64,000 bases of DNA from the NCBI RefSeq assembly GCF_023065955.2, contig NC_079873.1, forward strand, positions 101,656,128 through 101,720,127, in the 5' to 3' direction. This stretch comes from Ursus arctos (taxonomy: Eukaryota > Chordata > Mammalia > Carnivora > Ursidae). Position numbers and translations under genes: made by a program. Below the pieces are notes generated by a model. It ran no database searches. It was not told the origin of the DNA and saw only the letters and a list, made by a program, of their open reading frames with translations. Shown here in pieces: positions 389-62,229 of the stretch (position 1 is its first letter; every line of letters starts with the position of its first letter).

Positions 389-454
389 AAAAAACAATTG
401 TAAAACAAAGAACATTTGTAGGACAAGAAGAACCTCACTAGAGCTCTTCTGGTT

Positions 455-464
455 AAGATGGCGG
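455..464 (+). promoter_or_regulatory. YY1-like site at the L1 5' end
   Basis: The sequence aagatggcgg matches the YY1 core (AAnATGGCGG) and sits 13 bases inside the element. It is repeated at the same place in copy 2 (56841-56850), and a weaker 'aagatggc' lies at the start of the old L1-B (about 15186). In human L1 a YY1 site at the 5' end fixes the transcription start. A similar role here is inference from position and motif. Confidence 0.6.
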
Positions 465-611
465 AGGAGTAGGGGACCCCTTTTTCAGCCGGTCCCCTGA
501 GTCGAGCTGGATAGGTACCAGACCAGCCTAAATAACCACGGAATCAGCCTGAGACGCAGGATGATGCATCTGGATCTCTACAAATGAACATCTCCAGCGC
601 TGAGTATTGAG

Positions 612-1621
612 GTACGAAGAGGGGAGCTGTAAACCGTGCACAGATATCGGAAGATAAACGGAAGGGGGAGGGAGCCGCCGCGTTTGGGTGCCGGGAAGCG
701 GCAGCCACCTGCACGGGGGAGCGGGCGGACTCACAGAGGGCACCCACGAGAGAGCGGACTAACGCACAGCTCCAGGCATCTCCCGGAACACCGGAATCCC
801 GGTGTACTCACGGGATCCAGACTGAGACCGGGAACTCCCGGAGCGCGCGCGGGGCGGCTGGCGGGTGGCGGGCCACCTGCACGGGGGAGCGGGCGGACTC
901 GCGGTCTGCACCCACGAAACAGCAGACTGAGACCCTGAACCGGGTGCACGTGCCACCAGGCTTCTCATGAAACTCCGGAATCGAGGTGTGCTCACCGGGC
1001 ATAGACTGAGACCGGGAGACCTGGGAGCGTGCGGGGCGGCCCGGTGGCTGGCGGCATTAGAAACACAAAGGACAGAGACGCGCCGGCCCTGGAAGTGAGG
1101 GCAGGGACGCCGGGATGGTGCACACATCCCGGGACGCTGCAGGGTTGAGCAGCACCAACAGTAATAGAGTTAAAGTGGCCAGAACATCAGTGGAGAACGG
1201 GCCACAATCCCTCTGTTCTGTGACAATGCAGCCTCTGCTGCTCTGACTCTCAGAAGAGGCACAGCAGACCACCAGGGAAAGCCGCCAGAGAACAAAAGCC
1301 TGGAAATACCGGCTCAGAGAGTGCCCATCCCCATCCCCCCTCGCAGGGGACATGGAGACTCTAACCAAACAGGGTTGCCTGAGTATCTGTGCGGCAGGAC
1401 CCTCCCCCAGAACACAGAAGGCAGGCTGAAAAATCAAGAAGCCCACAACCCGAGGCGCCTGGGTGGCGCAGTCATTGAGCGCCTGTCTCCGGCTTAGGGT
1501 GTGATCCCAGCGTTCCAGAAAGGAGTCCCTCATCGGGCTCCTCCGCTGGGAGCCTGCTTCTTCCTCTCTCACTCCCCTGCTTCTGTTCCGTTCTTGCTGA
1601 CTGTCTGTCTCCCTCTCTCAG
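612..1621 (+). other. candidate intron in L1 5' UTR (GT...AG, 1010 bp)
   Basis: The left edge reads 'attgag|gtacga' (donor-like) and the right edge reads 'gtctccctctctcag|ataag', a long pyrimidine tract followed by CAG. In copy 2 the base after 'tattgag' (56997) is directly followed by 'ataaataaataaaatc' (56998 onward), which is the sequence just after this acceptor. The segment is thus missing between the predicted splice sites. The acceptor belongs to the CAN-SINE at 1448-1648. The junction is ambiguous by two bases, because 'ag' is present on both sides, so a plain deletion is not formally excluded. Confidence 0.75.
703..1045 (+). repeat. GC-rich tandem monomers in L1 5' UTR
   Basis: About two imperfect copies of a 170-185 base unit. 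The block 'gccacctgcacgggggagc' occurs at about 703 and again at about 872. The block around 'agactgagaccggga' recurs with an offset near 185 bases (about 817 and 1002), and 'ggggcgg' blocks recur near 851 and 1034. The region is rich in G+C and CpG, unlike its surroundings. Tandem promoter monomers are known at the 5' ends of mouse L1. A promoter role here is inference. The whole array is absent from copy 2. Confidence 0.7.
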
Positions 1622-1648
1622 ATAAGTAAATAAATAAAATCTTTAAAG
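1448..1648 (+). mobile_element. CAN-SINE embedded in the L1 5' UTR
   Basis: A tRNA-derived carnivoran SINE in sense orientation: head 'gcgcctgggtggcgcagtc', a middle with 'gtgatcccagcgttcc', a CT-rich stretch and an ataaataaat tail ending in tctttaaa. It has its own 12-bp duplication aagaagcccaca (1436-1447 and 1649-1660) inside L1 sequence, so it inserted into an L1. Copy 2 retains the SINE tail and the right-hand duplication in the same place (56998-57030), so the SINE was already present in a shared L1 ancestor. Its CT-rich part supplies the splice acceptor proposed at 1620-1621. Confidence 0.93.
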
Positions 1649-1750
1649 AAGAAGCCCACATCTCTAAGATCCCTATAAAACAAGGGGCACGGCCTGGGAC
1701 CCAGTCAATAATTTGGGCTCTGGACAACCCCGCAACCTCTCCTCATTAGA

Positions 1751-2655
1751 ATGACAAGAAGGAGAAGCCCCCCCCCCAGCAAAGAAAAGACAGTGAGTCT
1801 GTGGCGTCTGCCACAGAAATAACGGATATGGATGTAACCAAATTATCAGAAATGGAATTCAGAGTAACAATGGTCAAGATAATGAGTAGACTTGAAAAAA
1901 ATATTAAGGAAAATGTTACTGAGAATATAGAATCCCTAAGGGCGGAAATGAGAGTGAATTTGACAGAAATTAAAAATTCTATGAGCCAAATGCAGGCAAA
2001 ACTAGAGGCTCTGACGGCCAGGGTCACCAAAGCAGAAGAAAGGGTTAGTGAATTGGAGGATGGGTTAATAGAGGAAAAAATAAAAATAGAAGAGGGTCTT
2101 AAAAAAATCCACGCCCACGAATGTTGGCTATGGGAGATTACTGACTCAACGAAACGATCCAATGTTAGAATCATCGGCATCCCCGAGGGGGTGGAGAAAA
2201 ACAGAGGTCTAGAAGAGATATTTGAACAAATTGTAGCTGAAAACTTCCCTAATCTAGCAAGGGAAACAAAAATTCGTGTCCAAGAGGCAGAGAGGACCCC
2301 TCCCAAGCTCAACCATGACAGACCTACACCACGTCACGTAATAGTGCAATTCGCAAATATTAGATCCAAGGATACAGTATTGAAAATGGCCAGGGCAAAG
2401 AAATTTCTCACGTACCAAGGCAAAGGCATCAGAACTACGTCAGACCTGTCTACACAGACCTGGAATGAGAGAAAGGGTTGGGGGAGCATTTTTAAAGCTC
2501 TTTCAGAGAAAAACATGCAGCCAAGGATCCTTTATCCAGCAAGGCTGTCATTCAGAATTGATGGAGAAATAAAGACATTTCAGAATCAACAGTCACTAGC
2601 CAATTTCATAACCACGAAACCAGCCCTACAGGAGGTATTACGGGGGGTTCTATAA
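1751..2655 (+). pseudogene. L1 ORF1 (RNA-binding chaperone), copy 1, frameshifted
   Basis: ORF1 proteins form trimers, coat L1 RNA and act as nucleic acid chaperones in the L1 RNP. The ATG at 1751 is the start shared with copy 2 (57123). A run of ten C (1768-1777), against ccccaccc in copy 2, shifts the frame, so the long open frame begins only at GTG 1801 and runs 284 codons. In that frame, residues ~25-115 are charged and heptad-like (coiled coil), ~120-205 form the RRM starting at NVRIIGIPEG, and ~225-280 are the C-terminal domain with PRILYPARLSFR. An extra G near 2641-2646 ends the frame early at 2655. Without it, the frame would stop at 2738-2740, overlapping the ORF2 ATG. Both lesions lie in homopolymers. 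Confidence 0.9.
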
Positions 2656-2727
2656 AAGTAAAAAGGCCCCAAGAGTGATACAAAACAGAAAGTCACAGCC
2701 AATACAAACAAAGACTTTACTGACAAC

Positions 2728-5700
2728 ATGGCAGAATTAAAAGCATATCTCTCAGTACTCAGTCTTAACATTAATGGTTTAAATTCTTGCTTTAACGCCA
2801 CAGGGTTGCAGATTGGATAAAAAGAAATGACCCATCCATTTGCTGTCTACAAGAGACTCATTTTGAACCCAAAGATGCATTCAGACTGAGAGTAAGGGGA
2901 TGGAGTACCATCTTTCATGCAAATGGACCTCAAAAGAAAGCTGGGGTAGCAATTCTCATATCAGATAAATTGGATTTTAAACTACAGACTATAGTTAGAG
3001 ACGCAGAAGGGCACTATATTATTCTTAAAGTAAGTATTCAACAAGTGGATATGACAATTATAAATATATATGCCCCCAACAGGGGAGCAGCAAGATACAC
3101 AAGCCAACTCTTAACCAGAATAAAGAGACATATAAATAAAAATACATTAATAGTAGGGGACCTCAACACTCCACTCTCAGAAATAGACAGAACACCCTGG
3201 CAAAAACTAAGCAAAGAATCAAAGACTTTGAATGCCATACTCGACGAGTTGGACCTCTTAGATATATATAGAACACTACACCCCAGAACCAAAGAATACT
3301 CATTCTATTCTAATGCCCATGGAACATTTTCAAGAATAGACCATGTTCTGGGACACAAAACAGGTCTCAGCCGATACCAAAAGATTGAAATTATCCCCTG
3401 CATATTCTCAGACCACAACACTCTGAAATTGGAACTCAACCACAAGGAAAAATTGGGAAGAAACTCAAACACTTGGAGACTAAGAACCATCCTGCTCAGG
3501 AATGACTCGATAAACCAGGAAATCAAAAATCAAATTAAACAATTTATGGAGACCAATGAGAATGAAAATACAACAGTCCAAAACCTATGGGATATTGCAA
3601 AGGCGGTCCTAAGGGGGAAATACATAGCCATCCAAGCCTCACTCAAAAGAATAGAAAAATCTAAAATGCAGTTTTTATATTCTCACCTCAAGAAGCTGGA
3701 ACAGCAACAGAGGGACAGGCCTAATCCACGCACCAGGAAGCAGTTGACCAAAATTAGAGCTGAAATCAATCAAGCAGAAACCAGAAGTACAGTAGAGCAG
3801 ATCAACAGGACTAGAAGCTGGTTCTTGGAGAGAATCAATAAAATTGACAGACCACTGGCAAGACTTATCCAAAAGAAAAGAGAAAGGACCCAGATTATTA
3901 AAATTATGAGTGAAAAAGGAGAGGTCACGACGAACACCATTGAAATTGGAAGAATTATTAGAAATTTTTATCAACAGCTATATGCCAATAAACTAAGCAA
4001 TCTGGAAGAGATGGAATCCTTCCTGGAAACCTATAAACTACCAAGATTGAAACAGGAAGAAAATGATTTCTTAAACAGGCCAATTAATTATGAAGAAATT
4101 GAGTCTGTGATAAACAACCTTCCAAATAACAAAACTCCAGGCCCGGACGGTTTTCCTGGGGAATTCTACCAAACATTCCAAGAAGAAATAATACCTATTC
4201 TCCTAAAGCTATTTCAAAAAATAGAAACAGAAGGAAAGCTACCAAACTCATTCGATGAGGCCAATATTACCTTGATCCCCAAACCAGGCAAAGACCCCCT
4301 CAAAAAGGAGAATTACAGACCGATTTCCCTAATGCATATGGACGCCAAAATTCTCAACAAGATACTTGCTAATAGAATCCAACAGTTCATTAAAAGGATT
4401 ATCCACCACAATCAAGTGGGATTCATACCTGGGATGCAAGCGTGGTTCAATATTCGCAAATCAATCAGCGTGATACATCATATCAACAAGAAAAGACTCA
4501 GGAACCGTATGATCCTCTCAATCGATGCCGAAAAAGCATTTGACAAAATACAACATCCTTTCCTGATTAAAACCCTTCAGAGTGTAGGAATAGAAGGTAC
4601 ATTTCTCAATCTCATAAAAGCCATCTATGAAAAGCCTACTGCAAATATTATTCTCCATGGGGAAAAGCTGGAAGCCTTTCCCTTAAGATCAGGAACACGA
4701 CAAGGATGCCCACTCTCGTCACTATTATTCAACATAGTACTAGAAGTCCTTGCAACAGCAATCAGACGACAAAAAGGGATCAAAGGTATTCAAATCGGCA
4801 AAGAAGAAGTCAAAATGTCTCTCTTCGCAGATGACATGGTACTCTATATGGAAAACCCAAAAGAAGCCACTCCCAAACCATTAGAAGTTATAGAGCAATT
4901 CAGTAACGTGGCGGGATACAAAATCAATGCTCAGAAATCAGTTGCATTTCTGTACACGAATAATGAGAACGAAGAAAGAGAAATTAGAGAATCCATCCCA
5001 TTTACAATAGCAACAAAAACCATATGTTACCTTGGAATTAAGTTAACCAGAGACGTAAAGGACCTTTATTCTAGAAACTATAAATCACTCTTAAAAGACA
5101 TTGAGGAAGACATAAAAAGATGGAAAGATATTCCATGCTCATGGATCGGAAGAACTAACATAGTTAAAATGTCCATGCTACCCAGAGCAATCTACACTTT
5201 CAATGCTATCCTGATCAAAATACCGAGAACATTTTTCAAAGAACTGGAACAAATAGTCCTTAAATTTGTATGGAACCAGAAAAGGCCCCGAATCTCCAAG
5301 GAACTGTTTAAAAGGAAAAACAAAGCTGGGGGCATCACAATGCCAGATTTCGAGCTGTACTACAAAGCTGTGATCACAAAGACAGCATGGTACTGGCACA
5401 AAAACAGACACATAGACCAATGGAACAGAATAGAGAGCCCAGAAATGGACCCTCAGCTCTTTGAGCAACTAATATTTGATAAAGCAGGAAAAAACATCTG
5501 GTGGGAAAAAGACAGTCTCTTCAATAAATGGTGCCAGGAAAATTGGACAGCTACATGCAAAGGAATGAAACTTGACCACTATCTCACACCATACACAAAA
5601 ATAAACTCCAAATGGATGAAAGACCTTGATGTGAGACAGGAATCCATCAAAATTCTAGAGGAGAACATAGGCAACAATCTCTACGACATCGGCCAAAGCA

Positions 5701-6550
5701 ACCTTTTTCATGATACATCCCCAAAGGCAAGAGAAACAAAAGATAAAATGAATTTATGGGACTTCATCAAGATTAAAAGTTTCTGCACAGCCAAGGAAAC
5801 AGTCAGAAAAACTAAGAGGCAGCCCACGGAATGGGAGAAGATATTTGCAAATGACACTACAGATAAAGGACTGGTATCCAAGATCTACAAAGAACTTCTC
5901 AAACTCAATACATGAGAAACAAATAAATCAAAAAATGGGCAGAAGATATGAACAGACACTTTTCCAATGAAGACGTACAAATGGCTAACAGACACATGAA
6001 AAAATGTTCAAAATCATTAGCCATCAAGGAAATTCAAATCAAAACCACACTGAGATACCACCTTATGCCAGTTAGAATGGCAAAAATAGACAAGGCAAGA
6101 AACAACAATTGTTGGAGAGGATGTGGAGAAAGGGGATCCCTCCTACATTGTTGGTGGGAATGCAAGTTGGTACAGCCACTGTGGAAAACAGTGTGGAGGT
6201 CCCTTAAAAAGTTAAAAATTGAGCTACCCTATGATCCAGCCATTGCACTACTGGGTGTTTACCCCAAAGATACAGACGTAGTGAAGAGAAGGGCCATATG
6301 CACCCCAATGTTCATAGCAGCAATGTCCACAATAGCTAAATCGTGGAAGGAGCCGAGATGCCCTGCAACAGATGACTGGATTAAGAAGTTGTGGTCCATA
6401 TATACAATGGAATATTACTCAGCAATCAGAAAGAATGAGTTCTCAACATTTGCTGCAACATGGACGGCACTGGAGGAGATAATGCTAAGTGAAATAAGTC
6501 AAGCAGAGAAAGACAACTATCATATGATTTCTCTCATCTATGGAACATAA
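2728..6550 (+). pseudogene. L1 ORF2 (endonuclease / reverse transcriptase), copy 1, broken
   Basis: ORF2 protein nicks DNA and reverse-transcribes L1 RNA. The ATG at 2728 matches copy 2. A 1-base deletion near 2790 gives stops at 2793 (main frame) and 2818 (start frame). The main frame is then open from 2796 to a TGA at 5913-5915; from the TTG at 2970 it gives 981 codons. It holds the rest of the endonuclease ([16 protein letters not shown]), then the RT with D519 (IDAEKAF) and FADD at 619-622 (4824-4835). The TGA stands where copy 2 and the nested L1 have CGA, and a 4-base deletion follows. The C-terminal frame 5948-6550 carries the zinc-knuckle-like C-x3-C-x7-H-x4-C (C55, C59, H67, C72). 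It cannot make a full protein as read. Confidence 0.93.
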
Positions 6551-6839
6551 GAACTAGAATGATCAGTAGGGGAAGAAAGGGATAAAGAAATGGGGGGGGT
6601 AATCAGAAGAGGGAATGAAACATGAGAGACTATGGAATATGAGAAACAAACTGAGGGCTACAGAGGGGAGGGGGGTGGGGGAATGGGATAGGTCGGTGAT
6701 GGGTAGTAAGGAGGGCATGTATTGCATGGTGCACTGGGTGTTATACACAACTAATGAATCATCGAGCCTTACATCTTAAACTGGGGATGTACTGTATGGT
6801 GACTAACATAATATAATAAAAAATCATTATAAAAAAAAA
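6551..6839 (+). other. L1 3' UTR with G-runs and poly(A) signal
   Basis: Contains four G-runs of 3-6 bases at 6665-6687, a potential G-quadruplex, a feature known in mammalian L1 3' UTRs. AATAAA is at 6815-6820, followed by the A-rich tail. The same arrangement ends the other young copies. Confidence 0.8.
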
Positions 6840-6857
6840 AAGAAGAACCTCACTAGA

Positions 6858-52386: not shown

Positions 52387-52979
52387 TTTTTTAAATTTTT
52401 AATTTCTATATTTTTATGTACAGTTCAATGATTCATCACTTGCATATAACACCCAGTGCACCATGCAATACGTGCCCTCCTTACTACCCATCACCAGCCT
52501 ATCCCATTCCCCCACCGCCCTCCCCTCTGAAGCCCTCAATTTGTTTCTCAGAGTCCATAGTCTCACACGCTTCATTTCCCCTTCTAATTACCCCCCCTTA
52601 CTTTATCCCTTTCTTCTCCTACTGATCTTCCTAGTTCTTATGTTCCATAGATGAGAGAAACCATATAATAATTGTCTTTCTCTGCTTGACTTATTTCACT
52701 TAGCATTATCTCCTCCAATGCCATCCATGTTGCTGCAAATGTTGTGTAATCATTCTTTCTGATGGCTGAGTAATATCCCATTGTATATATGGACCAAATC
52801 TTCTTAACCCAGTCATCTGTTGAAGGGCATCTCAGCTCCTTCCACGATTTAGCTATTGTGGACAATGCTGCTATGAACAATGGGGTGCATATGGCCCTTC
52901 TCTTCACTACGTCTGTATCTTTGGGGTAAATACCCATTAGTGCAATTGCTGGGTCATAGGGTAGCTCAATTTTTAACTT
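52387..52979 (-). mobile_element. young L1 3' part, antisense (outer element of a composite)
   Basis: T-rich left end, then the reverse complement of the young L1 3' UTR and ORF2 C-terminal region, back to the copy 1 position ~6203 ('gctcaatttttaactttt'). The minus-strand frame 52937-52638 is a fragment of ORF2. The left duplication agtcctcaatattct is at 52372-52386; its partner is at 55443-55457, after the nested L1 and an inverted piece. Confidence 0.92.
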
Positions 52980-55287
52980 TTGACAAAATACAGCATCCTT
53001 TCCTGATTAAAAACCTTCAGAGTCTAGGGATAGAGGGTACATTCCTCAATTTCATAAAAGCCATCTATTAAAAGCCTACAGCAAATATCATTCTCAATGG
53101 GGAAAAGCTGGAAGCCTTTCCCTGAAGATCAGGAACACGACAAGGATGCCCACTCTCGCCACTATTATTCAACATAGTACTAGAAGTCCTTGCAACAGCA
53201 ATCAGACAACAAAAAGGGATAAAAGGTATCCAAATTGGCGAAGAAGAAGTCAAACTGTCTCTCTTCGCAGATGACATGATACTCTATATAGAAAACCCAA
53301 AAGTCTCCACCCCCAAGTTACTAGAATTTATAGAGCAATTCAGTAATGTGGCGGGATACAAAATCAATGCTCAGAAATCAGTCGCATTTCTATACATGAA
53401 CAATGAGACTGAAGAAAGAGAAATTAGGGAATACATCCCATTTACAACAGCACCAAAAATCACATGTTATCTCAGAATTAACTTAACCAGAGACGTAAAG
53501 GACCTATATTCTAGAAACTACAAATCACTCTTGAAAGACATTGAAGAAGACACAAAAAGATGGAAAAATATTCCATGCTCATGGATCGGAAGAATTAACA
53601 TAGTTAAAATGTCCATGCTACCTAGAGCAATCTACACTTTCAATGCTATACCAATCAAAATACCCATGACATTTTTCAAAGAACTGGAAAAAACAGCCCT
53701 TCAATTTGTGTGGAACCAGAAAAGGCACCAAATTGCCAAGGAATTGTTGAAAAGGAAAAACAAAGATGGGGGCATCACAATACCGGATTTCAAGCTGTAC
53801 TACAAACCTATGATCACAAAGACAGCATGGTACTGGCACAAAAACAGACTCATAGACCAATGGAACAGAACAGAGAACCCAGAAATGGACCCTCTGCTCT
53901 TTGGGCAACTAATCTTTGATAAAGCAGGAAAAAAATCCAGTGGAAAAAAGACAGTCTCTTCAATAAATGGTGCTGGGAAAATTGGTCAGCTACATGCAAA
54001 AGAATGAAACTTGGCCACTCTCTCATACCATACACAAAGATAAACTCTAAATGGATGAAAGACCTTGATGTGAGACAGGAATCCATCAAAATCCTAGAGG
54101 AGAGCATAGGCAGCAACCTCTAGGACATCGGCCACAGCAACTTCTTTCAAGACACGTCTCCAAAGGCAAGGGAAACAAAAGATAAAATGAACTTGTGTGA
54201 TTTCATCAAGATAAAAAGCTTCTGCACAGCCAAGGAAACAGTCAAAAAAACTAAGAGGCAGCCCACGGAATGGGAGACTATATTTGCAAATGATACTACA
54301 GATAAAAGACTGGTATCCAAGATCTACAAAGAACTTCCCAAACTCAATACACGAGAAACAAATAAACAAATCATAAAATGGGCAGAAGATATGAACAGAC
54401 ACTTCTCCAATGAAGACATACAAATGGCTAACAGACACATGATAAAATGTTCAATATCATTAGCCATCAGGGAAATTCAAATCAAAACCACACTAAGATA
54501 TCACCCTACACCAGTTAGAATGGCAAAAATAGACAAGGCAAGAAACAACAATTGCTGGAGAGGATGTGGAGAAAGGGGATCCCTCCTACATTGTTGGTGG
54601 GAATGCAAGTTGGTACAGCCACTCTGGAAAACAGTGTGGAGGTCCCTTAAAAAGTTAAAAATTGAGCTACCCTATGATCCAGCCATTGCACTACTGGGAA
54701 TTTACCCCAAAGATACAGACGTAGTGAAGAGAAGGGCCATATGCACCCCAATGTTCATAGCACCTTTGTTCACAATAGCTAAATCGTGGAAGGAGCTGAG
54801 ATGCCCTTCAACAGATGACTGGATTAAGAAGATGTGGCCCATATATACAATGGAATATTACTCAGCTATCAAAAAGAACGAATTCTCAACATTTGCTGCA
54901 ACTTGGACGGCACTGGAGGAGATAATGCTAAGTGAAATAAGTCAAGCAGAGAAAGACAATTATCATATGGTTTCTCTCATCTATGGAACATAAGAACTAG
55001 GAAGATTGGTAGGAGAAGAAAGGGATAAAGAAAGGGGGGGTAATCAGAAGGGGGAATGAAGCATGAGAGACTATGGACTCTGAGAAACAAACTGAGGGTT
55101 TCAGAGGGGAGGGGGATGGGGGAATGGGATAGGCTGGTGATGGGTAGTAAGGAGGGCACGTATTGCATGGTGCACTGGGTGTTATACGCAACTGATGAAT
55201 CATCGAACTTTACATCAAAAACCAGGGATGTACTGTATGGTTACTACCATAATATAATAAAAAAACATTTAAAAAAACCAAAAAAAA
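52980..55287 (+). mobile_element. young L1, 5'-truncated, sense, nested in the composite
   Basis: Begins in the RT region at the equivalent of copy 1 ~4537 ('gacaaaatacagcatcc') and runs to the L1 end with an A-rich tail. It carries FADD (53264-53275), the open frame 53276-54007, and the frame 54187-54993 that spans the place where copy 1 has its TGA and deletion and reaches the normal ORF2 end with the zinc knuckle intact. Frame breaks exist near 53050-53120 and near 53930, and a TAG at 54121. No duplication of its own was found; the left junction shows a short 'ttt' microhomology. Confidence 0.92.
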
Positions 55288-55296
55288 AAAAACAAA

Positions 55297-55442
55297 GAAT
55301 GGCAAAAATTGACAAGGCAAGAAACAACAATTGTTGGAGACAATGTGGAGAAAGGGGATCCCTCCTACATTGTTGGTGGGAATGCAAGTCGGTATAGCCA
55401 CTCTGGAAAACAGTGTGGAGGTCCCTTAAAAAGTTAAAAAAG
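55297..55442 (+). mobile_element. short sense L1 piece at right end of composite
   Basis: 'aatggcaaaaattgacaagg' to 'cccttaaaaagttaaaaa' matches copy 1 from ~6079 to ~6219, i.e. ORF2 C-terminal sequence. It has no L1 tail and ends exactly at the right duplication agtcctcaatattct (55443-55457). Relative to the antisense L1 at 52387 this is inverted, as in a twin-primed 5' end. Confidence 0.88.
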
Positions 55443-56817: not shown

Positions 56818-56997
56818 AGGAGTTGGTCATAGGAGGAGTTAAGATGGCGGAGGAGTAGGAGACAACTTTTTCAGCCAGTCCCCTGAGTTGAGCTGGATAG
56901 GTACCAGACCAGCCTGAACATCCACGGAATCAGCAGGAGATACAGGAAGATACATCCAGATCTCTACAAATGAACTTCTCCAGCGCTGAGTATTGAG

Positions 56998-57023
56998 ATA
57001 AATAAATAAAATCTTTAAAGAAG
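56998..57023 (+). mobile_element. CAN-SINE tail retained at the splice junction
   Basis: ataaataaataaaatc then tttaaag, followed by the aagaagcccaca segment that flanks the SINE in copy 1. It shows that the L1 source of copy 2 carried the same SINE at the same site. Confidence 0.85.
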
Positions 57024-57122
57024 AAGCCCACATCCCTAAGATCCCTAAAAAACAAGGGGCACGGCCTGGGACCCAGTCAATAATTTGGGCTCTGGACAAC
57101 CCCGCAACCTCTCCTCATCAGA

Positions 57123-58116
57123 ATGACAAGAAGGAGAAGCCCCACCCAGCAAAGAAAAGACAGTGAGTCTGTGGCCTCTGCCACAGAAATAATGGATATG
57201 GATGTAACCAAAGTATCAGAAATGGAATTCAGAGTAACGATGGTCAAAATGATGAGTAGAATTGAAAAAACTTAACAAAAAGGTTACTGAGAATATAGAA
57301 TCCCTAAGGACTGAATGAGAGGGAATCTGACAGAAATTAAAAATTCTATGAGCCAAATGCAGGCAAAACTAGAGGCTCTGACGACCAGGATCACCGAAGC
57401 AGACGAACGTATTAGTGAATTGTAGGATGGGTTAATAGAGGAAAAAACGAAAATAGAAGCTGGTCTTAAAAAAATCCACGCCCACGAATGTAGGTTACGG
57501 GAGATTACTTACTCAATGAAACGAGCCAATGTCAGAATCATCGGCATCCCTGAGGGGGTGGAGAAAAATGGAGGTCTAAAAGAGATATTTGAACAAATTG
57601 TAGCTGAAAACTTCCCTAATCTAGCGAGGGAAACAAACATTCATGTCCAAGAGGCAGAAAGGACCCCTCCCAAGCTCAACCACAACAAACCTATGCCACG
57701 TCACGTCATAGTGCAGTTCGCAAATATTAGATCCAAGGATACAGTATTGAAAGCGGCCAGGGCAAAGAAATTTCTCACGTACCAAGGCAAAGGCATCAGA
57801 ATTACGTCAGACCTGTCTACACAGACCTGGAATGAGAGAAAGGGTTTGGTGGGCATTTTTAAAATTTTCTCTGAAATTTTCAGAGAAAAACATGCAGCCA
57901 AGGATCCTTTATCCAGCAAGGCTGTCATTCAGAATTGATGGAGAAATAAAAACATTCCAGAATCGCCAGTCATTAACCAATTTCGTAACCACGAAACCAG
58001 CCCTACAGGAGATATTAAGGGGGTTCTATAAAGGTAAAAAGGCCCCAAGAGTGATACAGAACAGAAAGTCACAACCAATACAAACAAAGACTTTACTGGC
58101 AACATGGCATCATTAA
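57123..58116 (+). pseudogene. L1 ORF1, copy 2, broken
   Basis: The ATG at 57123 starts the expected frame without the C-run expansion seen in copy 1. An in-frame TAA at 57273-57275 ends it in the coiled coil, after a small frame change, and another TAG lies near 57423. RRM and part of the C-terminal domain read in 57516-57938, and the C-terminal end in 57832-58116 (PRILYPARLSFR). That last frame stops at 58114-58116, 13 bases into ORF2. Not functional as read. Confidence 0.9.
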
Positions 58117-61100
58117 AATTCTCTCTCTCAGTTCTTAGTGTCAATGTTAATGGCTTAAATGCTCCCATAAAGCGCCACAGGGTTGCAGATTGGATAAAAA
58201 GAAATGACCCATCCATTTGCTGTCTACAAGAGACTCATTTCAAACCCAAAGATGCATTCAGACTGAGAGTAAGGGGATGGAGTACCATCTTTCACGCAAA
58301 TGGACCTCAAAAGAAAGCTGGGGTAGCAATTCTCATATCAGATAGATTGGATTTTAAATTAGAGACTATAGTTAGAGATGCAGAAGGGCACTATATTATT
58401 CTTAAGGGAAGTATTCAACAAGTGGATATGACAATTATAAATATATATGCCCCCAACGGGGGAGCAGCAAGATACACAAGCCAATTCTTAACCAGAATAA
58501 AGAGACATATAGATAAAAATACATTAATAGTAGGGGACCTCAACACTCCACTATCAGAAATAGACAGAACACCCTGGCAAAGACTAAGCAAAGAATCAAA
58601 GGCTTTGAATGCCATACTCGACGAGTTGGACCTCATAGATATATATAGAACACTACACCCCAGAACCAAAGAATACTCATTCTATTCTAATGCCCATGGA
58701 ACATTCTCAAGAATAGACCATGTTCTGGGACACAAAACAGGTCTCAACCAATACCAAAAGATTGAAATTATCCCCTGCATATTCTCAGACCACAATGCTC
58801 TGAAATTGGAACTCAACCACAAGGAAAAATTTGGAAGAAACTCAAACACTTGGAGACTAAGAACCATCCTGCTCAGGAATGACTTGATAAACCAGGAAAA
58901 CAAAAATCAACTTAAACAATTGATTGAGACCAACGAGAATGAAAACACAACAGTCCAAAACCTATGGAATACTGCAAAGGCAGTCCTAAGGGGGAAATAC
59001 ATAGCCATCCAAGCCTCACTCAAAAGAATAGAAAAATCTAAAATGCAGTTTTTATATTCTCACCTCAAGAAGCTGGAACAGCAACAGAGGGACAGGCCTA
59101 ATCCACGCATGAGGAAGCGGGTGACCAAGATGAGAGCAGAAATCAATGAATTAGAAACCAGAAGCACAGTAGAGCAAATCAACAGGACTAGAAGCTGGTT
59201 CTTTGAGAGAATCAATAAAATTGACAAACCACTGGCAAGACTTATCCAAGAGAAAAGAGAAAGGACCCAAATTATTAAAATTATGAATGAAAAAGGAGAG
59301 GTCATGACCAACACCAATGAAATTGGAAGGATTATTAGAAACTATTATCAACAGCTATATGCCAAAAAACTAAGCAATCTGGAAGAGATGGAGGCCTTCC
59401 TGGAAACCTATAAACTACCAAGACTGAAACAGAAAGAAATTGATTTCTTAAACAGGCCAATTAATTATGAAGAGATTGAGTCAGTGATAAACAACCTTCC
59501 AAATAACAAAACTCCAGGCCCGGATGGTTTTCCTGGGGAATTCTACCAAACATTCAAAGAAGAAATGATACCTATTCTCCTTAAGCTATTTCAAAAATAG
59601 AAACAGAAGGAAAGCTACCAAACTCATTCTATGAGGCCAATATTACTTTGATCATCAAACCAGGCAAAGACCCCATCAAAAAGGAGAATTACAGACTGAT
59701 TTCCCTAATGAATAATGACGCCAAAATCCTCAACAAGATCCTTGCTAATAGAATCCAACATACATTAAAAGGATTATCCATCACGATCAAGTGGGATTCA
59801 TACCTGGGATGAAAGCGTGGTTCAATATTCGCAAATCAATCAGCGTGATACATCATATCAACAAGAAAAGACTCAGGAACCATATGATCCTCTCAATCGA
59901 TGCCGAAAAAGCATTTGACAAAATACAGCATCCTTTCCTGATTAAAACCCTTCAGAGTGTAGGAATAGAAGGTACATTTCTCAATCTCATAAAAGCCATC
60001 TATGAAAAGCCTACTGCAAATATTATTCTCAATGGGGAAAAGCTGGAAGCCTTTCCCTTAAGATCAGGCACTCGACAAGGATGCCCACTCTCGCCACTAT
60101 TATTCAACATAGTACTAGAAGTCCTTGCAACAGCAATCAGACGACAAAAAGGGATCAAATGTATCCAAATCGGCAGAGAAGAGGTCAAAATGTCTCTCTT
60201 CGCAGATGACATGATACTCTATATGGAAAACCCAAAAGAATCCACGCCCAAACTATTAGAAGTTACAGAGCAATTCAGTAATGTGGCGGGATACAAAATC
60301 AATGCTCAGAAATCAGTTGCATTTCTATACACGAATAATGAGACTGAAGAAAGAGAAATTAGGGAATCCATCCCATTTACAATAGCACCAAAAACCATAC
60401 ATTACCTTGGAATTAACTAAACCAGAGATGTAAAGGACCTATATTCTAGAAACTATAAATCACTCTTGAAAGACATTGAGGAAGACATAAAAAGATGGAA
60501 AAATATTCCATGCTCATGGATCGGAAGAATTAACATAGTTAAAATGTCCATAGTACCCAGAGCAATCTTCACTTTCAATGCTTCCTGATCAAAATACCCA
60601 GGACATTTTTCAAAGAACTGGAACAAATAGTCCTTAAATTTGTATGGAAACAGAAAAGGCCCCGAATCTCCAAGGAACTGTTGAAAAGGAAAAACAAGGC
60701 TGGGGGCATCACAATGCCGGATTTTGAGCTGTACTACAAAGCTGTGATCACAAAGACAGCATGGTACTGGCACAAAAACAGACTCATAGACCAATGGAAC
60801 AGAATAGAGAGCCCAGAAATGGACCCTTGGCTCTTTGGGCAACTAATATTTGATAAAGCAGGCAAAAACATCTGGTGGAAAAAAGACAGTCTCTTCAATA
60901 AATGGTGCTGGGAGAATTGGACATCTACATGGAAAAGAATGAAACTTGACCACTCTCTCACACCATACACAAAAATAAACTCCAAATGGATGAAAGACCT
61001 TGATGTGAGACAGGAATCCATCAAAATTCTAGAGGAGAACATAGGCAGCAACCTCTACGACATCGACCAAAGCAACCTTTTTCATGACACATCCCCAAAG

Positions 61101-61928
61101 GCAAGAGAAACAAAAGATAAAATGAACTTATGGGACTTCATCAAGATAAAAAGCTTCTGCACAGCCAAGGAAACAGTCAAAAAAACTAAGAGGCAGCCCA
61201 CGGAATGGGAGAATATATTTGCAAATGACACTACAGATAAAGGACTGGTATCCAAGATCTACAAAGAACTTCTCAAACTCAATACACGAGAAACAAATAA
61301 ACAAATCATAAAATGGGCAGAAGATATAAACAGACACTTTTCCAATGAAGACATACAAATGGCTAACAGACACATGAAAAAATGTTCAAAATCATTAGCC
61401 ATCAAGGAAATTCAAATCAAAACCACACTGAGATACCACCTTACGCCAGTTAGAATGGCAAAAATAGACAAGGCAAGAAACAACAATTGTTGGAGAGGAT
61501 GTGGAGAAAGGGGATCCCTCCTACATTGTTGGTGGGAATGCAAGTTGGTATAGCCACTCTGGAAAACAGTGTGGAGGTCCCTTAAAAAGTTAAAAATTGA
61601 GCTACCCTATGACCCAGCCATTGCACTACTGGGTGTTTACCCCAAAGATACAGATGTAGTGAAGAGAAGGGCCATATGCACCCCAATGTTCATAGCAGCA
61701 TTGTCCACAATAGCTAAATCGTGGAAGGAGCCGAGATGCCCTTCAACAGATGACTAGATTAAGAAGTTGTGGTCCATATATACAATGGAATATTACTCAG
61801 CTATCAGAAAGAACGAGTTCTCAACATTTGCTGCAACATGGACGGCACTGGAGGAGATTATGCTAAGTGAAATAAGTCAAGCAGAGAAAGACAACTATCA
61901 TATGATTTCTCTCATCTATGGAACATAA
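58104..61928 (+). pseudogene. L1 ORF2, copy 2, endonuclease intact, RT broken
   Basis: Opens with ATG 58104 and stays open for 498 codons. The apurinic-type endonuclease looks complete, with active-site residues at N14, E43, Y115, D145, N147, D205, D229 and H230, the same numbering as known for human L1, which supports this start. A 1-base loss in an A-run gives a TAG at 59598-59600. RT motifs follow in frame 59791-60420 with [16 protein letters not shown] and FADD (60199-60210). Further breaks: TAA at 60418, a small deletion near 60583, TAG at about 61551 and TAG in the C-terminal frame near 61755. The zinc-knuckle block lies near 61480-61540. Confidence 0.93.
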
Positions 61929-62229
61929 GAACTAGGAAGATCGGTAGGGGAAGAAAGGGATAAAGAAAGGGGGGGTAATCAGAAGGGGGAATGAAACATG
62001 AGAGACTATGGAGTATGAGAAACAAACTGAGGGCCTCAGAGGGGAGGGGGTGGGGGAATGGGATAGACCGGTGATGGGTAGTAAGGAGGGCACGTATTGC
62101 ATGGTGCACTGGGTGTTATATGCAACTAATGAATCATGGAGCTTTACATCGGAAACCAGGGATGTACTGTATGGTGACTAACATAATATAATAAAAAATC
62201 ATTAAATTAAAAAAAAGGAGTTGGTCATA

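Follow-up and report, generated by a model that had tools for sequence, protein, structure and literature searches.

Spliced, re-integrated L1s (SpIREs) are, as a kind, already known from human, where SpIRE97/622, 97/790, 97/976 and 97/853 have been described (Larson et al. 2018, PMC5860796). The accessible portion of that paper puts human SpIREs at 131 of 6,609 (about 2%), with SpIRE97/622 at ~1.8%. Host sequence can also become joined to L1s: in the human RAP1GDS1/L1PA2 and other mRNA–L1 chimeras, as presented in the available part of PMC13174262, host exons lie 5′ of a near full-length L1 and several of them end at splice donors; a SpIRE is among the source L1s, and re-mobilisation from a host promoter has been proposed for RAP1GDS1/L1PA2. 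CAN SINEs, according to the accessible sections of PMC9599045, carry a polypyrimidine TC motif of 45–60 bp before AATAAA repeats.

The window studied here, a 64,000-nucleotide stretch of the Ursus arctos genome, contains an L1 (copy 2) that we take, with a probability of roughly 95%, to be a SpIRE that used a SINE-supplied acceptor and to represent a form made repeatedly from spliced L1 RNA. Set against what the available part of PMC5860796 says of human SpIREs, the resemblance lies in a single donor in the 5′ UTR, close to the beginning of the L1, in the use of several acceptors, in the hallmarks of L1 insertion and in a low frequency. The differences are that the genome is non-human and the L1 5′ UTR another one, that, of the acceptors found, the most frequent belongs to a captured SINE and that one pattern match joins the donor to the ORF2 start.

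Two L1s of one family, copy 1 and copy 2, lie in the window in the same orientation, both with exact target-site duplications (TSDs); their identity is 94% downstream of the junction in copy 2 and 89% upstream of it. Their relevant features are as follows, with a slash marking a joint.

443..6840, plus strand: copy 1, same-family L1 with the intron present (TSDs at 426-442 and 6841-6857)
611..612, plus strand: predicted splice donor GAG/GTACGA (rank 3 of 90 GT sites in 440-2900)
612..1621 of copy 1, plus strand: intron gone from copy 2 (1,010 bases)
~1448-1648, plus strand: CAN-type SINE in the L1 5′ UTR (own 12-bp TSDs at 1436-1447 and 1649-1660)
1597..1601, plus strand: CTGAC, candidate branch point (21 bases from its A to the acceptor)
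1621..1622, plus strand: predicted splice acceptor CTCTCTCAG/ATAA, supplied by the SINE (rank 1 of 217 AG sites; join in 21 copies)
56818..56831, plus strand: 5′ TSD of copy 2, AGGAGTTGGTCATA (exact 14-bp repeat)
56832..62213, plus strand: copy 2, near full-length L1 without the 5′ UTR intron (spliced L1)
56839..56997, plus strand: exon 1 of the spliced L1, TTAAGATGG...TATTGAG (89% identity to copy 1 over 163 bases; exact donor 20-mer)
56997..56998, plus strand: splice junction GAG/ATAA in copy 2 (same join in 21 genomic L1s)
56998..57020, plus strand: 3′ tail of the CAN-type SINE kept in copy 2, the start of exon 2
57021..57032, plus strand: 3′ copy of the SINE's own TSD kept in copy 2, AAGAAGCCCACA
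62216..62229, plus strand: 3′ TSD of copy 2 (exact)

The join in copy 2 (56997/56998) reads TATTGAG/ATAAATAAATAAAATC; in copy 1 the same two words are separated by 612-1621, which begins with GTACGA and ends with CTCTCTCAG. A GT–AG interval is exactly absent from an otherwise continuous L1, as the earlier note had claimed. Because copy 2 retains the A-rich tail of the SINE and one copy of the SINE TSD, its ancestor had the SINE. The tail is one ATAA unit shorter than in copy 1 and in most other spliced copies, which we take as tandem-repeat slippage separate from the splice. The intron also contains overlapping tandem units (window 686-871 and 856-1054, ~71% identical), and their number may be the source of the intron lengths of 836–1037 bases seen among relatives. 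Elsewhere in the window, at 52416-55440, L1 3′ pieces adjoin in opposite orientation; their element coordinates overlap, so they are probably separate insertions and not one twin-primed insertion.

The earlier note had further argued that, the TSD of copy 2 being intact, the loss preceded integration. This does not follow, since a later internal deletion also spares the TSD; the order of events is settled instead by recurrence of the junction. A 25-base junction pattern (at most two mismatches) finds 22 genomic sites, and the reversed-pattern control finds none. Twenty of these sites were fetched, and 19 are L1s with the junction; the other (L050) was excluded from the junction set, as no L1 5′ end surrounds it. 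Together with window copy 2 and a copy on C103 (L007), this makes 21 junction-bearing L1s. An independent similarity search likewise found the junction spanned by 21 of the 40 sequences scored (1,827 candidates).

These copies bear the marks of target-primed insertion, an A-rich 3′ end and a TSD. The sharing of this exact junction among copies with intact TSDs, for which the earlier note had proposed to look, extends to 17 of the 21, whose TSDs are at least 12 bp long and all different (those of L040 and L046 with one mismatch). Weaker cases are L039, with a TSD of 7 bp, L031, whose 3′ end is missing, and the C103 copy, whose 3′ end lies outside the sequence read; no TSD was found for L047. 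Breaks additional to the junction occur in L031, L033 and L047, and the L1 5′ ends of L032 and L045 are shortened with the junction still present. In L048, ~120–140 bases lie between the L1 3′ end and the 3′ TSD, likely a 3′ transduction.

The exact CAG form of the acceptor has 819 genomic occurrences, and all six that were read are unspliced L1s with the donor 836–1037 bases upstream. Fourteen spliced copies have exactly the tail that was searched after CAG, giving a spliced rate of 14/833 (1.7%), which is rough because the sites read number 6 of 819 and because 5′-truncated copies, or copies spliced at other acceptors, may be counted among the 819. Could each locus instead have lost the interval by its own DNA deletion after integration, for example through replication slippage or recombination? 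Intact TSDs alone say nothing against this, and exon 1 and the intron do end in the same two bases, AG. We nevertheless consider such independent deletions extremely improbable, because 21 copies have the same joint with only those two bases common to both edges, because the edges lie that far apart in copy 1 and in the six unspliced relatives, and because the interval ends are GT and AG.

The splice sites of 440-2900 were scored with an approximate human weight matrix, not a trained model. On that scale the two sites that the earlier note had put forward for scoring, 611/612 and 1621/1622, take the third and first ranks given above. The donor, ~158 bases into the L1 element, is moreover joined to other acceptors elsewhere. 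A search with the donor 20-mer (at most two mismatches) returns 4,924 genomic sites; among the 100 matches listed, 79 are collinear with copy 1 and 21 are not. The non-collinear joins listed comprise nine at the SINE acceptor, five at an acceptor followed by AGGCTG, four at the acceptor at 1347, one near the ORF2 start, one near the ORF1 end and one small deletion without AG. Three of these acceptors can be placed in copy 1 as follows.

1346..1347, plus strand: second acceptor, CCCCCCTCGCAG/GGGACA, joined elsewhere to the same donor (rank 2 of 217)
2623..2624, plus strand: weak acceptor near the ORF1 end, ACCAG/CCCTACAGG (rank 51 of 217; at least one site among the matches listed)
2803..2804, plus strand: acceptor near the ORF2 start, CGCCACAG/GGTTGCAG (rank 3 of 217; ORF placed by eye)

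By pattern alone, there are 12 matches genome-wide for the AGGCTG acceptor, 12 for the 1347 acceptor (three of them with three mismatches) and one for the ORF2-start acceptor, with no match in any of the controls. The single donor-to-ORF2-start join lies at G000:C1:101,150,881, ~560 kb from copy 2, and would omit ORF1. At all five acceptors, one or more unspliced references show the preceding AG: the AG of the SINE site is present in copy 1 and missing from L051–L055, and that of AGGCTG is present in L051–L055 and missing from copy 1, where it is therefore unranked. The first three ranks among the 217 AGs of copy 1 belong to three of the five acceptors. Five of the six distinct joins end in AG, a motif that occupies 8.8% of positions in copy 1 612-2900; the chance probability is 3e-5, rising to 6e-3 when the join may slide over three positions. 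Two points count against splicing, namely the rank of only 51/217 for the acceptor at 2624 and the one donor join without AG. The earlier note had held that a simple deletion would explain copy 2 better if no other insertion shared the junction and breakpoints other than GT–AG were equally frequent. For breaks that start at the donor, the side held constant in the pattern searches, joins without AG are the rarer kind (1 of the 21 non-collinear among the 100 of 4,924 matches listed); this part of the comparison favors splicing. An apparent spliced rate of 20/100 among the donor matches was rejected as an artefact: the final pattern letter, H, bars G at +15, and as many unspliced copies have G there, spliced sites are listed first and no rate can be drawn from the listing.

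The best-scoring of the 217 AGs falls within the SINE at 1448-1648, which supports the proposal that a CAN-type SINE inside the L1 5′ UTR supplied the acceptor. The SINE has a TC motif, an A-rich tail and its own TSD, and has relatives elsewhere in the window; we presume that it belongs to the CAN family. An Rfam search of 440-1850 gave only a match below the family cut-off. Scores of the acceptor are 9.0–11.8 in copy 1 and the six copies chosen by the exact CAG pattern. In the five unspliced relatives chosen otherwise (5 of the 19 similarity-search rows that match only after the joint), the score is −5 to −6 in all five, with no AG, and GCCAC or GTCAC stands before the A-rich tail. The polypyrimidine tract before that tail is a likeness to CAN SINEs as portrayed in the accessible sections of PMC9599045; unlike the elements described there, the region here has CAG and a branch-point candidate, and appears to act inside an L1 on L1 RNA.

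A second account by deletion is that one L1 master lost 612-1621 from its DNA and the deleted form then spread as a subfamily. It would readily explain one junction common to many copies, and two of the spliced copies, L031 and L037, do have a common source. It predicts, however, a single spliced lineage. A tree built from exon 1 together with 1.5 kb of exon 2, covering 20 spliced rows and 12 unspliced ones (L033, with an internal deletion, was omitted), rejects a single spliced clade (p-AU 6.33e-29, log-likelihood 314 lower). Window copy 2 pairs with the unspliced, acceptor-bearing L080 (support 100/93) and L043 with the unspliced L081 (99/92), and the supported branches force at least six changes. 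Gene conversion among L1s may blur this tree, in which the unspliced rows number 12. The tail variants after the junction, ATAAG in 5 of the 21 spliced copies and ATAAA in 16, both occur among CAG-form sites as well, and four further AG sites share this donor. We therefore regard a deleted master as very unlikely; in the tree, the spliced copies are recurrent independent insertions and not one deleted lineage. As an intron would not be regained without recombination, the forced changes can be counted as splicing events, and we read the 21 copies found as the outcome of at least six that were independent. The claim of the earlier note that copy 2 is a spliced, re-integrated L1 is thus supported by the recurrent GT–AG junction, the distinct TSDs and the non-monophyly of the spliced copies.

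For a SpIRE arising in this manner, the sequence of events would be that a full-length L1 of the copy 1/copy 2 family is transcribed, that the spliceosome joins its donor to the SINE acceptor where the CT tract meets the A-rich tail, and that the spliced RNA, with the downstream ORF1 and ORF2 regions, is reverse-transcribed into a new site; splicing and re-integration would have happened repeatedly. We infer the existence of the spliced L1 RNA from its putative DNA copies. The removed intron probably holds the promoter, because it is the CpG-dense part of the region (66 of the 74 CpGs counted over exon 1, the intron and exon 2 up to 1800).

Of the 20 spliced copies with an examined 5′ flank, five begin with host sequence from elsewhere (L031, L037, L038, L040 and L045; the flank of the C103 copy is outside this count). 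Three of them are located as follows.

G000:C1:96,067,717-96,074,741: L031
G000:C115:28,550,224-28,557,248: L037
G000:C351:1,355,458-1,362,482: L045

Host exons fused 5′ of an L1, some of them at splice donors, are also seen in the human chimeras in the available part of PMC13174262; what differs here is that the fusions make up this share of the spliced copies and come from four host loci, that sister insertions differ in host exon choice and that the one source site read, on C26, is without L1 in this assembly. For L031, L037, L040 and L045, the genomic sequence shows the host exons ending at GT donors. L037, L038, L040 and L045 have a TSD placed 166 to 622 bases 5′ of the L1, enclosing host part and L1 together; the fusion in L031, which has no TSD, is known by shared exons only.

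The 370 host bases of L037 match four separate blocks that lie in the same order along 36 kb of contig C26; each of the first three blocks is followed by GT, and each of the last three is preceded by AG. L031 carries only the first and fourth blocks, two host exons being skipped relative to L037, and has the same host–L1 joint. Where the fourth block is joined to the L1 5′ end, the C26 sequence runs on with no splice site, so the joint resembles the flank of an L1 formerly inserted there. No L1 is present in the 501 bases read at the C26 site, which lies at about 4,732,236 on the minus strand, and the source L1 is thus absent from this assembly. The host part of L045 maps to the same contig at a distance of 56 Mb, ends GCAGG/GTATGTG and is joined to a second L1 acceptor, TTTTTCAG/CCGG (CAG/CCGG), ~35 bases into the L1. 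That of L040 ends GCTGCG/GTGAGA, followed by ~25 unplaced bases and then the L1, and that of L038 consists, by sequence match, of four blocks joined in order and spread over 139 kb on C296.

The unspliced controls are 16 donor-collinear copies (copy 1 + 10 + 5), 10 of which have a usable TSD; L079 was left out of the control pairs, as no L1 end was seen in its 3′ piece (L061). The extra 5′ sequence exceeds 100 bases in the controls L076 and L058 and amounts to 29 in L062. Part of the extra sequence of L058 is masked, and it depends on a TSD match of 12 bp; the ~165-bp addition of L076 is repeated sequence, not unique exons (40 of 841 candidates scored). Extra 5′ sequence as such is not enriched in spliced copies (4/17 vs 2/10 unspliced, p=1), and neither is the host-exon type significantly so (5/18 vs 0/10, p=0.13).

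Two routes to the fusions can be envisaged: (i) transcripts from host promoters could read into an L1 and be spliced in both places, or (ii) promoterless spliced copies could be re-mobilised from host promoters. Under the second, several spliced copies would be second-generation elements, driven by host promoters after landing in a gene. As L031 and L037 have the same host–L1 joint and different host exon combinations, one L1 in the C26 gene probably gave two RNAs, both lacking the L1 intron. The vacant C26 site makes the splice state of that source unreadable, however, and the fusion rate is not significantly above that of unspliced copies; we therefore consider a second-generation origin possible but somewhat doubtful. 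With similar reserve, we suggest that a SINE captured in the L1 5′ UTR may have evolved a strong acceptor and founded a splice-prone lineage, in which host-promoter transcripts might splice in, shed the CpG-rich 5′ UTR and retrotranspose as fusions, and spliced copies might be re-mobilised and not be dead on arrival.

A SINE inside an L1 as the apparent source of a splice acceptor seems to be new and is supported by the sequence; we found no earlier report of it in the open-licence literature, and the accessible part of a canine L1 preprint (PMC12458276) contains no splicing terms. Nor did that literature yield, for carnivores, a report of SpIREs of this type, of a SINE-borne acceptor or of host-exon fusions of spliced copies. 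The copies described here indicate that splicing and re-integration of L1s are not confined to human, arising also in a different 5′ UTR and at a roughly similar low frequency. They also indicate that one mobile element can give another a working splice acceptor, leaving fossils in the genome. Finally, the fusions with host exons offer a means of testing whether L1s without a promoter avoid extinction by borrowing those of the host.
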